From: a virus | Virus record (IMG/VR): IMGVR_UViG_3300042453_000451 | Location: 1-45,850 of that record | Strand: one strand, 5' to 3' | Length of the DNA: 45,850 bases | Part shown: one piece after another, positions 452-45,850 of the stretch | Layout of the letters: each line of letters begins with the position of its first letter | Position numbering within the stretch: the first letter of the stretch is position 1 | Made by a program: the position numbers and the translations under genes | The notes under the pieces: generated by a model | Databases searched by the model: none | Told to the model about the DNA's origin: nothing | Seen by the model: only the letters and a program-made list of their open reading frames with translations

Positions 452-493
452 ATTGAGACTGCTAACGGCACGTTCTTCTTCCGTAACAACTGA
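452..493 (+). pseudogene. 3' remnant of the ArdA-like gene
   Basis: These 42 bases equal the last 14 codons, including the stop, of the full ArdA-like gene (45724-45765). Here they follow an unrelated gene with no ArdA-like frame upstream. It is a gene-tail fragment acting as a direct repeat, and is probably the scar or substrate of recombination. Confidence 0.8.
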
Positions 494-517
494 CCTTTCA
501 CACCTTCTGTTCACTTA

Positions 518-529
518 ATTCACACTCAT
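518..529 (+). promoter_or_regulatory. ATTCACACTCAT repeated word, copy at start of gene 528
   Basis: This 12-mer occurs in three non-coding sites: 518-529, 1459-1470 and 44272-44283 (and again at 45790-45801 in the end repeat). The 11-mer TTCACACTCAT also lies inside the primase (5673-5683) and polymerase (8796-8806, approximately) genes. Function unknown. Candidates are a phage-polymerase promoter part or a translation-start element. Confidence 0.4.
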
Positions 530-800
530 GAAAATTTCCACCAACTACAAGATTGAAGCTAAAGTTTGCCACGTTAGTTACTATAGTGGAGATGATTCTC
601 TCACCATTCACACAGAAGATGATGAGATGGTTGAAGTGTATGGCGTAGATCTTAGGACTATGCTTTGTCTTACTCGTAACTTCCTAGTCGTTGATGCCAA
701 ACGTAATACGTTTTGTAAGCACCAAGTCGATACACTGCGTGAGATTAAAGATGCAGTAGAGAAGCTTATCCGATTAAACACTAAAGAGGAGGACAACTGA
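528..800 (+). CDS. hypothetical early protein
   Basis: 90 residues starting MKISTNYKIEAKV. Predicted beta-rich N-terminal half with a charged helical C-terminus (EIKDAVEKL, ending KEEDN). No family recognised. The start codon ATG is the end of the repeated word ATTCACACTCATG. The first 51 bases recur at the right end of the window (from 45800), directly after the complete ArdA-like gene, showing the gene order of the shorter variant. It is coupled to the next gene by a TGATG overlap. Confidence 0.65.
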   Translation: MKISTNYKIEAKVCHVSYYSGDDSLTIHTEDDEMVEVYGVDLRTMLCLTRNFLVVDAKRNTFCKHQVDTLREIKDAVEKLIRLNTKEEDN

Positions 801-2094: not shown

Positions 2095-4434
2095 TTGGCT
2101 ACACCAGCAGAGATTGATGCACAAGTTCAACTAGAAAGAGACCAAATCAATCAAGGACTCAAGCGACTGCATGAACAACGCAGACAACTAGAGGAAAAGA
2201 GTTATGCGTCTGCCACAATTTATGGCGTGGCTTCTATTGATGCTCTTCTTCCTAAGCTGGTTGAACGTATCCAGGAGACCAACCATAGGATCTACCAAAG
2301 ACAAAACGGAGTAGCATTCAAGGAGATTGCTGTCTACCTATCGGACATTGAACCTATGGCATCCGCTGCTATTGCACTTAAGATAACCTTTGATAAGGTA
2401 TTCTCATTTAAGCAGGGCAGTGATCAACTTGTTTCAGTGTGTGATGCTATTGGTTCAGCTGTTGAGGCTGAATGCCAGATGCGTCACTATGAACGTAATG
2501 CTCCGGGTTTACTAGCAACACTCAAGAAGAACTACTACCACAGTTCAATGGGCACACATCAGAAGCTCGTTGTTATACGAACACTGATGAATCGTTGTGA
2601 GGTAGATCAGTGGCCTGCATGGGGTAGAACTAATCGTATCAAACTAGGTACGTGGTTGTTGGATTGTATTATCCAAACAAGCAACTGGTTTACCAAAGAA
2701 CTCAAACAAGAGGGTAAGAACCGCGTTAACTACGTTGTTCCTACACCTGAGTTCATTGAGATCAAGGATCGCATCATGAAAGATGCTGAACTATTCGCTC
2801 CACTTGCATGGCCAATGCTAATCGAACCTAACGATTGGGCTGTTGGTAGGTCTGGTGGTTACATCTTGAACGAGGTGATGCACGGACATGAAATGGTTCG
2901 CCGGGGCAACCACCCATGTATACAGGGGGAGATACCCTATGCCTTTTTGAACAAGATTCAGAAGGTTGCTTATCGACTAAACCCCTTTATTGTAGGGGTT
3001 GCTGAAGAACTAAGCAGACTGGAACGTTCAGTCGGTAAGTTTCTCCCTATCGTTCATCACGAGCTGCCTGCTAAACCTGCTGATATTGAAACTAATTACG
3101 ATAGTCGTAAGGATTATCGGAGAAGAGCAGCAGCTGTGATGAATACCAATGCTCAAGAGTTTAAGAAGTCATGTAGAACTCGCATGACAATGGAAGCAGT
3201 AAAACGCTTCAAGGATGTACCTAAGTTCTACATACCGTGGTCGTTTGACTATAGGGGAAGAGCTTACCCGATTCCTAGTTTCTTAACTCCACAAGATACT
3301 GACTTCGGTAAGTCATTGCTTCGTCTTGCAGATGAGGCGTACATGACACCTGAAGCTGAGGATTGGATAGCATTTCAAGTTGCTACCTGCTATGGTCTAG
3401 ATAAGGCTGCAATGGTAGAGCGTCTTGAGTGGGTACGGAGTAACATCACACTCATCACGCAAGTTGCCACAGATCCAATTGGATCGTTACCTGAATGGGA
3501 AGCAGCAGAAGAACCATGGCAGTTTCTAGCAGCATGTGAAGAATACTATCATTGCGTGATCGCAGCTGATAGACAGTTCACTGGACTGATGATAGCAACA
3601 GATGCTACCTGTTCAGGTCTACAAATTCTAGCAGGTCTCGCTAGAGATCGTAATACCGCCCGCCTTGTTAATGTCTTACCTGGTGATAAACCACAAGATG
3701 CTTACAAAGTAGTTGCTGAGGAAGCTACACCTCATTGCCCTGCTTCTATTCAACCATATATGGATAGGAAGACGGTCAAGAGGGTAGTGATGACAGTACC
3801 GTATAACGCTAAACCTTTCTCTAATCGTGGCTACATCCGAGAAGCTTTAACTGAAAAGGGCGTAGAGATCTCTAAAGAAGATCTAACCGCAACTGTCAAG
3901 GCAGTTAGAGATGCCATGAATCGTGTCGTCCCTGGTCCCATGGCCGTGATGACGTGGATTGAGAAGGAAGTAGCTAATGCTATTAAATCTGGCAAGACAT
4001 TCCTTGAGTGGACAACACCATCTGGGTTTGTCGTACACCAAAAGCTGAACAAGAAACAGTTTGAGGTCTTAGATCTACAACTGCTTGGTCGCTGTAAGAT
4101 GAAGGTTGCAGTTGGTGACACAGATGAGGTTGACATCAACCATCACAAGAACGCTACTGCTCCTAATCTTATCCATAGTTTAGATGCGTCCTTGCTCCAT
4201 TTAGCTGTCTTACGATTTGACGCACCAATTGCTCTCATTCACGATTCTGTGCTTTGTCGTGCAACGGACATGTCCACCTTGTCCACTATTGTACGAGAAA
4301 CATACATGCACTTATTCGCAGAGCATGATTATCTAAAAGACTTTGCCCTGCAGATTGGGGCAGAGACTGAACCACCGATCATTGGTGATCTGGAACCAGA
4401 GACCGTGATTGAATCCACCTATTTCTTTTGTTAA
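2095..4434 (+). CDS. T7-like single-subunit DNA-directed RNA polymerase (gp1)
   Basis: 779 residues. It transcribes the later phage genes from phage-specific promoters. Conserved sites are visible: palm motif A 'IATDATCSGLQ' with Asp503, motif B 'RKTVKRVVMTVPY' with Lys562 and Tyr570 (the same 8-residue spacing as T7 Lys631/Tyr639), and motif C 'IHDSV' with Asp717. It is shorter than the 883-residue T7 enzyme, mainly in the N-terminal promoter-recognition domain, as is usual for cyanophage relatives. The start is a TTG at 2095, chosen because a strong ribosome binding site (GGAGAGG, 2083-2089) lies just upstream and no ATG fits. The downstream gene overlaps by one base. Confidence 0.95.
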   Translation: MATPAEIDAQVQLERDQINQGLKRLHEQRRQLEEKSYASATIYGVASIDALLPKLVERIQETNHRIYQRQNGVAFKEIAVYLSDIEPMASAAIALKITFDKVFSFKQGSDQLVSVCDAIGSAVEAECQMRHYERNAPGLLATLKKNYYHSSMGTHQKLVVIRTLMNRCEVDQWPAWGRTNRIKLGTWLLDCIIQTSNWFTKELKQEGKNRVNYVVPTPEFIEIKDRIMKDAELFAPLAWPMLIEPNDWAVGRSGGYILNEVMHGHEMVRRGNHPCIQGEIPYAFLNKIQKVAYRLNPFIVGVAEELSRLERSVGKFLPIVHHELPAKPADIETNYDSRKDYRRRAAAVMNTNAQEFKKSCRTRMTMEAVKRFKDVPKFYIPWSFDYRGRAYPIPSFLTPQDTDFGKSLLRLADEAYMTPEAEDWIAFQVATCYGLDKAAMVERLEWVRSNITLITQVATDPIGSLPEWEAAEEPWQFLAACEEYYHCVIAADRQFTGLMIATDATCSGLQILAGLARDRNTARLVNVLPGDKPQDAYKVVAEEATPHCPASIQPYMDRKTVKRVVMTVPYNAKPFSNRGYIREALTEKGVEISKEDLTATVKAVRDAMNRVVPGPMAVMTWIEKEVANAIKSGKTFLEWTTPSGFVVHQKLNKKQFEVLDLQLLGRCKMKVAVGDTDEVDINHHKNATAPNLIHSLDASLLHLAVLRFDAPIALIHDSVLCRATDMSTLSTIVRETYMHLFAEHDYLKDFALQIGAETEPPIIGDLEPETVIESTYFFC

Positions 4435-43748: not shown

Positions 43749-43756
43749 CTGGTTAG

Positions 43757-43797
43757 AGGGGCATTGCAGGTCATCCTGTGCTGTCCCTTTAATTTTT
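43757..43797 (+). terminator. intrinsic terminator after thyX
   Basis: AGGGGCA/TGTCCCT (43757-43763 / 43782-43788, one G-U pair) plus an inner CAGG-TCAT-CCTG hairpin (43767-43778), followed by TTAATTTTT. It starts 9 bases after the thyX stop. Confidence 0.8.
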
Positions 43798-43823
43798 GAC
43801 AGAAATTTCAGAAGCCTTATATC
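43796..43823 (+). promoter_or_regulatory. sigma70-like promoter
   Basis: Perfect -35 TTGACA (43796-43801), 16-base spacer, -10 TATATC (43818-43823). It overlaps the end of the thyX terminator. Likely read by host RNA polymerase; the downstream region is non-coding for about 800 bases. Confidence 0.5.
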
Positions 43824-44201
43824 GACATGGGCGGTGGCATTTACCCCCATGGCCCCTTATAAGAATAGGCAACGCAGTGGTATCCAGGATGCACCCTGAT
43901 TGTTGTATTGTAATAACATAGGGACCAGAATATTTATTGTTGAGAGATAGTAATAGCCAGATGGAGCTATTATTAATTGCGTGTGTGCATTGTATTATCT
44001 ATTGCCACGCCTTATTGAGAATGAATTGCAATAAGCAATGTGGTAGTTATAGGCAATGATAAGGTGATGTAATATATTAACACTGTGTGATAAGGTGCTG
44101 CTATAGGTAGATACGAAGTGATCTGTCCGCCCTCCCTGTTCCGTCAGTACAGCGCAGCTATAACGCTCTCAGACACGTCTAGAAGGCGCTATAAGGCCGC
44201 T

Positions 44202-44215
44202 CTAATCATGATTAG
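44202..44215. repeat. perfect 14-bp palindrome CTAATCATGATTAG
   Basis: Perfect dyad with no spacer, followed directly by GTATACT, a possible -10 element (TATACT, 44217-44222). It could be an operator or a cleavage/recognition site. Confidence 0.6.
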
Positions 44216-44271
44216 GTATACTGTGCCCTGATGCAGTATTGAGACGCCTTACAGGGGTATGTACTAACTGT

Positions 44272-44283
44272 ATTCACACTCAT
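44272..44283 (+). promoter_or_regulatory. ATTCACACTCAT repeated word, control-region copy
   Basis: Identical to the words at 518-529 and 1459-1470, here in non-coding DNA and followed by GCACTCGTTACACTCGAGCTCACG. Not at a gene start here, which argues against a purely translational role. Confidence 0.4.
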
Positions 44284-44385
44284 GCACTCGTTACACTCGA
44301 GCTCACGCAAACTAACACGCAGCACTGCACGACATACACCACGATACCAAATCCCTAATTGGTAGCTAGGAGCCCTAATCAGGGG

Positions 44386-44414
44386 TTGACAGGGCGGCCT
44401 GGATGGTCTATGGT
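44386..44414 (+). promoter_or_regulatory. sigma70-like early promoter
   Basis: Perfect -35 TTGACA (44386-44391), optimal 17-base spacer, -10 TATGGT (44409-44414). It would give a leader of about 225 bases before the first small early gene at 44647. Best candidate for host-polymerase transcription of the early genes. Confidence 0.65.
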
Positions 44415-44646
44415 AGGTTCATCGGTGGGGGACAGGAGACCCGGTTCTTTCCACCAGCACCTAGACAATTGCATATTTAGGTCGTCACAAGACGGAACTA
44501 GCGGCGCGAGCGATCCCGCGAGACAGAGATATGGTTGCAACCCGACCAGCTGTCACGACCACGTTGTTACTAATCATTAACACAGAGCCACATGTGTTTA
44601 ATAAATTAGATCATGGCAACTGCTCACACCTACAACGGAGTTAATT

Positions 44647-45166: not shown

Positions 45167-45189
45167 TCCACAATCACGAGGCTTTAATT

Positions 45190-45765
45190 ATGACCACCAC
45201 TGTTCCTACCTTTATGCTCAAGGGTGATGCACTTGTTGAGTATGTAAATGAGAAGATGGAGCTTATTAATAGCAATAGGCTGACACGCACCGAAATGATC
45301 AAGGACGCAGGCTATGCGTATGACAATGGTAGTGCTAGGTATGCAGACTTTTACACTGAGCTACTCAATGCCAAGGGTGTTGTACCTGTGACTAACAACG
45401 ACATTGCTGATCAAGAGTATGAAGATCTAAGTGTTGATAAGCGTAACCTCTATGATCGCATTGATGAATGGAGTGGTGCTAAGTGGACGCATGAGGAGCT
45501 GATTGAGTTCATTGATGAACTTGAGGACATTGGTATTGATACAGTGTCTGAGTTTGACGATGCCTATGAATGGGAGCATGATGGTTGGGTGTGTTGGGCT
45601 GAGAAAGAGTTCGCTGAGTATTGGTGCATTGAGGTTCTTGATGCACAGATTCCAGAGTGTGTACTCGCTGCTGTAGATTGGCAGGCTGTGTGGGAGCACA
45701 ACCTACGCTATGACTTCTGTAGCATTGAGACTGCTAACGGCACGTTCTTCTTCCGTAACAACTGA
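45190..45765 (+). CDS. ArdA-like antirestriction protein fused to an AbrB-like N-terminal domain
   Basis: 191 residues. Residues about 8-66 (FMLKGDALVEYVN, LTRTEMIKDAGYAY, RYADFYTELLNAKG) resemble the cyanobacterial AbrB-like regulator domain pattern 'L.G.ALL..V......+.E.A+.CGY.......F..F+.ALL.AKG'. Residues about 85-191 resemble ArdA: ELIEFIDELEDIGI, FDDAYEWEHDGW, AEKEFAEYWC, AAVDWQAVWEHNLRYDF, then TFFFR. The protein is very acidic. ArdA mimics bent B-DNA and blocks type I restriction. The host-type domain may help it bind host DNA or regulators. It is the last complete gene and matches the partial frame at 1-138. Confidence 0.7.
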   Translation: MTTTVPTFMLKGDALVEYVNEKMELINSNRLTRTEMIKDAGYAYDNGSARYADFYTELLNAKGVVPVTNNDIADQEYEDLSVDKRNLYDRIDEWSGAKWTHEELIEFIDELEDIGIDTVSEFDDAYEWEHDGWVCWAEKEFAEYWCIEVLDAQIPECVLAAVDWQAVWEHNLRYDFCSIETANGTFFFRNN

Positions 45766-45850
45766 CCTTTCACACCTTCTGTTCACTTAATTCACACTCA
45801 TGAAAATTTCCACCAACTACAAGATTGAAGCTAAAGTTTGCCACGTTAGT
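45724..45850. repeat. right copy of end repeat (identical to 452-578)
   Basis: 127 identical bases running to the last base of the window. They include the ArdA-like gene tail and the first 51 bases of the gene at 528, which is therefore present here as a partial copy (45800-45850). Confidence 0.95.
45800..45850 (+). CDS. partial copy of the gene at 528 (first 17 codons)
   Basis: ATG at 45800 begins the same MKISTNYKIEAKV frame as at 528, cut by the window end. It shows that in this version of the locus the gene directly follows the ArdA-like gene, without the 355-bp segment. Confidence 0.85.
   Translation, partial: MKISTNYKIEAKVCHVS

Follow-up and report, generated by a model that had tools for sequence, protein, structure and literature searches.

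The window, that is the whole stretch of 45,850 nucleotides analysed, comes from the near-complete record of a T7-like (Autographiviridae) Synechococcus phage. On its plus strand, an ORF with an ATG start (45190-45765) encodes a protein of 191 amino acids, and a Shine-Dalgarno-like GAGG (45178-45181) can be read directly from the sequence 8 nt upstream of the ATG. The protein has two parts. Residues 8-66 (45211-45387) carry the pattern LxGxxL ... (C/A)GY ... FYxxLLxAKG and resemble the N-terminal region of the cyanobacterial protein cyAbrB, as judged by hhalign, shuffle controls, genome matches and a model of the module. Residues 89-191 (45454-45762) resemble domains 2-3 of ArdA, that is its C-terminal half, by hhalign and by a structural match to 2w82_B. 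The intervening residues 67-88 (45388-45453), delimited by model confidence and by the starts of stand-alone relatives, make up an acidic linker and the start of the helical C-terminal part. The most conserved motif of the ArdA C-terminal half in the alignments, AVDWQAVWEHNLRYDF, lies at residues 161-176 (45670-45717). All these features are on the plus strand.

A second, partial copy of the 3′ end of the fusion gene is present at the opposite end of the contig (1-138, plus strand), with two mismatches relative to 45628-45765. This copy is followed by approximately 313 bp containing two small ORFs, and then by the final 42 bp of the gene for a third time, within a 127 bp stretch (452-578, plus strand) identical to 45724-45850. 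An overlap of 127 bp is typical of k-mer assembly, and the genome therefore closes at approximately 45.3 kb. Positions 1-578 look like a population variant in which a segment was inserted or duplicated directly behind the fusion gene.

When the contig ends are joined, about 1.6 kb separates the end of the fusion gene from a 779-amino-acid ORF (2095-4434) of the same length as the annotated RNA polymerase of cyanophage DSL-LC07. The fusion gene lies upstream of the RNA polymerase gene, among small genes, in all annotated relatives examined. In T7, gene 0.3, encoding the antirestriction protein Ocr, occupies the corresponding early position, and from its place in the genome we infer that the fusion protein is probably made early in infection. 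A stretch of approximately 0.9 kb (43749-44646), flanked by the ThyX gene on one side and the early small genes on the other, contains no convincing ORF, and DSL-LC07 has a comparable ORF-poor gap in the same place (L004 2236-3110). Early promoters of host type, or the physical ends of the genome, may lie in this gap; a promoter scan of 43749-44646 gave no excess over shuffled sequence. Rfam and tRNA scans of the whole window gave no matches.

The two-part protein encoded by the 191-residue ORF is genuine and conserved. Searches yielded at least 51 distinct full-length relatives, mostly from IMG/VR, together with seven GenBank records of cyanophages. Identity to the fusion protein is 65% for DSL-LC07, 57% for S-CBP1 and about 40% for S-B28, WH11-B and 7B11-B, and the GenBank relatives are annotated as 'antirestriction protein' or as hypothetical. 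Comparison with a 92% identical relative revealed 21 synonymous and 16 non-synonymous codon changes, which fits a protein under constraint. A plasmid search yielded no relative of the whole protein. The AlphaFold2 model of the full protein has two domains (mean pLDDT 86.7, pTM 0.59), with lower confidence at residues 61-70; relatives that lack the module start near fusion residue 66-80. The first-pass annotation had read the ORF as such a fusion and had known of no described protein of this kind. Both homologies were borne out, and no published account of a cyAbrB-module/ArdA fusion was found in a search of the open-access literature. Neither a single unrelated fold nor an absence of AbrB-like similarity in residues 8-66 was found when these were looked for.

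Direct scans gave little indication of either relationship. A Pfam scan of the protein itself matched neither the ArdA nor the AbrB family, PF07275 (ArdA) gave no match to it at E ≤ 10, that is below the family cut-off, and NCBIfam and PADLOC scans of the protein returned nothing. Both relations are therefore remote, and profiles built from relatives were needed to detect them. PF07275 also gave no match to the phage record, a result that says little, since none of the control genomes gave an ArdA match either. In PHROGs the protein had a weak anti-restriction match (E 0.26), and 13 of 15 family members matched PHROG 36653, 'anti-restriction protein' (E up to 10, best 7.9e-5). One member of the fusion family reached E 0.029 with PF07275, and the stand-alone relative L094 matched Pfam ArdA above cut-off (E 1e-8, profile 70-151). 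Relatives L100-L106 are full ArdA proteins, so that the fusion family is linked to ArdA stepwise, through stand-alone relatives. When the fusion-family profile was aligned with full-length ArdA using hhalign, the probability was 97.3% (P 2.6e-11, score 69) over ArdA columns 69-171 of 173, and the maximum score in 100 shuffles was 19.6. In a Foldseek search with the full model, ArdA (2w82) was the best structural match, with a probability of 0.96 but an E of 0.16. VIA placed model residues 89-189 on ArdA 75-164 of 2w82_B (Z 5.9, rmsd 3.0, 86 residues), and the next row had Z 4.4. PPR and troponin matches from a PDB sequence-profile search were judged to be due to chance.

ArdA domains 1, 2 and 3 comprise residues 1-61, 62-103 and 104-165 respectively (PMC3906837). 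The structural match covers ArdA 75-164, indicating that domain 1 is missing from the fusion protein. The hhalign alignment likewise starts in domain 2, and residues 8-65 match cyAbrB instead, so this is not a three-domain ArdA. The net charge of residues 67-191 (125 residues) is -26, with a range of -23 to -29 across the 51 relatives. This range overlaps that stated for ArdA (-22 to -29; PMC3906837) and was counted in favour of DNA mimicry. By profile and by predicted fold, then, residues 89-191 correspond to the C-terminal half of ArdA, domain 1 being absent, and the earlier assignment of the C-terminal two thirds to ArdA stands for domains 2-3 only.

The N-terminal third was compared with a set of cyAbrB sequences taken from database plasmid records and from cyanobacterial genomes. 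With a family profile of phage residues 1-66, hhalign gave a probability of 95.1% (P 3e-8, score 47.4) and 35% identity over 55 columns; the maximum score in 200 column shuffles was 24.2, and in a control alignment with the C-terminal half in its place the probability was 0.2%. Of 292 cyanobacterial genomes, 102 contained matches to the phage module profile (lowest E 1.3e-9). The best matches were in genomes of picocyanobacterial size, and nearly all of the matched sequences shown were cyAbrB or carriers of the same module. By these comparisons, the conserved cyAbrB N-terminal region, with its pattern LTGxxLLxKVKEL..(C/A)GY..G.R...FYxALLxAKG, has a counterpart in the fusion protein. The low pairwise identity of the 191-residue protein and its empty Pfam scans might suggest that the likeness to cyAbrB has arisen by chance, but given the P value, the score relative to the shuffles and the nature of the genome matches shown, we consider this highly improbable.

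PF14250 covers only positions ~52-125 of cyAbrB, downstream of the region common with the phage module, and a search of the phage record with PF14250 gave no match, so the AbrB-type DNA-binding domain is absent. Profile comparison thus identifies residues 8-65 as homologous to the N-terminal region of cyAbrB, of about 55 residues, and not to its AbrB-type DNA-binding domain. The first-pass annotation was right about the relationship to AbrB-like proteins, but since the DNA-binding domain is missing, 'regulator domain' does not apply in the DNA-binding sense. Modelled alone, the module forms three helices and a short hairpin (pLDDT 88), and neither VIA nor Foldseek found a convincing PDB match by which to name its fold, which does not amount to evidence for a new one. 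The module has a net charge of about -2 (0 to -4 in relatives). No function for the cyAbrB N-terminal region was found in the open-access literature searched. The conserved residues ~1-52 of cyAbrB (for example in L108 and L262) lie outside PF14250 and deserve a family model of their own.

The module was also found in other contexts. In Prochlorococcus phage P-TIM68 it is a stand-alone ORF of 52 amino acids, with a separate anti-restriction gene 3.3 kb away, and in gp246 of Synechococcus phage B23 (L112 1402-1830) it is N-terminal to an unrelated C-terminus without a Pfam match. In small cyanobacterial genomes it precedes a BRCT domain and LRV-repeat proteins. In the cyanobacterial genome G273 it precedes a full three-domain ArdA of 250 amino acids (L203/L263 7245-7997), near an integrase-like ORF, assigned by eye, and a primase/helicase-like ORF; because of the integrase-like ORF, this fusion perhaps lies on an integrative element. 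A second ArdA C-terminal lineage carries the module in further viral contigs (L266, L268-L276). As far as sequence comparison reaches, these occurrences show the cyAbrB N-terminal region to be mobile, serving as a module in phages as well as in picocyanobacteria.

Individual examples of the module before LRV/HEAT repeats or BRCT were seen at L230 (genome G117), L231 (G224) and L229 (G192); the proteins combining it with LRV/HEAT or BRCT have 589, 1110, 1489 and 399 residues. A complete cyAbrB homologue, with module and PF14250 (E 1.3e-6), is encoded by the podovirus Krakvirus MedDCM-OCT-S39-C11 (L111 2986-3342); here a phage carries its own version of the host nucleoid protein.

In a tree of the ArdA halves, three fused groups lie apart, each beside unfused relatives. 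A single clade of all fused ArdA halves was rejected (AU p 3e-56), as was a clade of the fusion family with the L266 group (AU p 2.5e-4) or with G273 (AU p 1.6e-4). Since the ArdA tree rejects one clade of fused proteins, the pairing of module and ArdA appears to be recurrent. The modules of the fused proteins, on the other hand, cluster together weakly (70/91, 59 columns), so that domains may have been swapped repeatedly around a single module of phage type. Either one such module took part in several fusions, or the module stayed in place while its C-terminal partners were exchanged. By both routes the combination would be a useful one, and the recurrent joining of the module to a DNA mimic suggests a specific host target. 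Within the fusion family, L090/L091 seem from the tree to have lost the module.

We propose that the fusion protein would be a DNA mimic that counters restriction as ArdA does, with the ~55-residue cyAbrB N-terminal module standing in for ArdA domain 1. The acidic ArdA part would fill the DNA-binding cleft in the methylase core of type I restriction-modification enzymes, and might also occupy other DNA-binding proteins. The module would serve as an adaptor through which the mimic attaches to a protein or assembly of the host, and this attachment would raise the local concentration of the mimic or choose its target. A role as adaptor is suggested by the presence of the module alone, before AbrB, BRCT, LRV and unknown partners, and in three ArdA lineages. 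On sequence and model evidence, the best-supported core of our interpretation is a DNA mimic that acts against restriction and carries an adaptor for a host protein; this core is probably correct. The most interesting candidate partner of the module is cyAbrB, an H-NS-like nucleoid protein. The first-pass annotation had also suggested interference in host nitrogen/carbon regulation, which nothing that we found supports; a role against restriction, targeted by way of the module, is the better fit. The result is a new ArdA architecture, in which the extra part has a testable purpose.

Restriction targets exist, as type I HsdR was found in 46 of 151 sampled genomes of the picocyanobacterial family. 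Loss of ArdA domain 1 need not abolish activity, because sArdC, an ArdA consisting only of the C-terminal part, protects lambda DNA from type I restriction in E. coli (PMC12548430). In full-length ArdA, mutations affecting antirestriction map mostly to domains 1-2 and those affecting antimodification to domain 3, so a protein with domains 2-3 could be weaker, or mainly an antimodification protein; ArdA proteins with long extensions have already been noted in databases (PMC3906837).

Several known systems resemble parts of the fusion protein. Like ArdA (PF07275; 2w82, Tn916 ORF18), it follows domains 2-3 in profile and predicted fold at residues 89-191, conserves the (V/I)DW..VW....YDF region and has a similar net charge; unlike ArdA, it has a cyAbrB-type module in place of domain 1 and falls below the Pfam cut-off. 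It shares with sArdC an acidic ArdA C-terminal half without domain 1, as many stand-alone cyanophage relatives appear to do (L090-L099, S-TIM5, P-TIM68), whereas the described sArdC is stand-alone and chromosomal and lacks the extra N-terminal module (PMC12548430). Residues 8-65 are like cyAbrB1 and cyAbrB2 in being homologous to their N-terminal ~55 residues, but the hairpin after the GY motif is shorter, and an ArdA half follows in the absence of the AbrB-type DNA-binding domain. T7 gp0.3 (Ocr) is also an acidic DNA mimic encoded in the early region upstream of RNA polymerase. The likeness put forward is one of position and function, and no sequence relation was found. Ocr lacks an additional module and differs from ArdA in secondary structure (PMC3906837).

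A simpler explanation is that this is a plain anti-restriction protein, in which the module only takes up the position of ArdA domain 1, or helps in folding or dimerisation, with no specific host partner. At 191 residues the protein is close in length to a three-domain ArdA and the module stands at the position of domain 1, and L090/L091 persist after apparent loss of the module. In G273, however, the module precedes a complete three-domain ArdA and so is not a substitute there, and a module that is nearly neutral does not extend the DNA mimicry. We regard this explanation as somewhat unlikely.

Alternatively, the protein may be primarily a counter-silencer. The module would associate with host cyAbrB, and the acidic ArdA half would act as decoy DNA, pulling cyAbrB off phage or host DNA, with anti-restriction secondary or absent. 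The module is the N-terminus of cyAbrB itself without the DNA-binding domain, comparable to H-NST, a truncated H-NS (PMC8501957). cyAbrB2 binds AT-rich DNA broadly, as H-NS does, and has been proposed to protect the cell from foreign DNA; it also interacts with cyAbrB1 (PMC11368403). Both sArdC and ArdA_R64 relieve repression by the transcription repressor AllR, which ArdA_R64 binds directly (PMC13300388). T4 Arn, a DNA mimic, T7 gp5.5 and LUZ24 gp4 target H-NS-type proteins, and with host H-NST they are precedents for a mimic or truncated silencer acting on a nucleoid protein, with no homology claimed (PMC8501957). On the other hand, there is no evidence for self-association of the cyAbrB N-terminus, and oligomerisation has not been shown biochemically (PMC11368403); the partner need not be cyAbrB, because LRV and BRCT proteins also carry the module; and other cyanophages have ArdA without it. 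Counter-silencing as the primary activity is therefore unlikely, if well worth considering. To our knowledge, none of gp5.5, Arn, gp4 and H-NST combines the N-terminal module of a silencer with a DNA mimic in one chain.

The two activities might also be combined: the cyAbrB N-terminus would hook the DNA mimic onto cyAbrB assemblies, so that phage DNA is freed of the silencer, and type I restriction would be blocked by the same ArdA half. We consider this unlikely. If it were true, counter-silencing and counter-restriction would have been joined by domain fusion, repeatedly, in cyanophages, and we know of no earlier phage protein that joins them in this way. Whatever the mechanism, a module whose host target is cyAbrB would point to silencing of incoming phage DNA by cyAbrB in cyanobacteria, which for foreign DNA is so far a proposal (PMC11368403).

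An improbable alternative is that the module binds DNA itself, as an element resembling a winged helix, which would make the protein a transcription factor or a mimic targeted by sequence. Residues 11-64 of the full model are weakly similar to the winged-helix structures 3lwf (Z 2.2) and 3hts (Z 2.0), and the module is part of a DNA-binding protein in cyAbrB; yet the module modelled alone had no convincing PDB match, its own net charge is slightly negative to neutral, and the half to which it is fused is strongly acidic.

Among other phages, Pelagibacter phage Jormungand (L281 430-1297) has two overlapping genes, gp43 and gp44, both annotated as ArdA; one is possibly a fragment of ArdA and the other an extended form.
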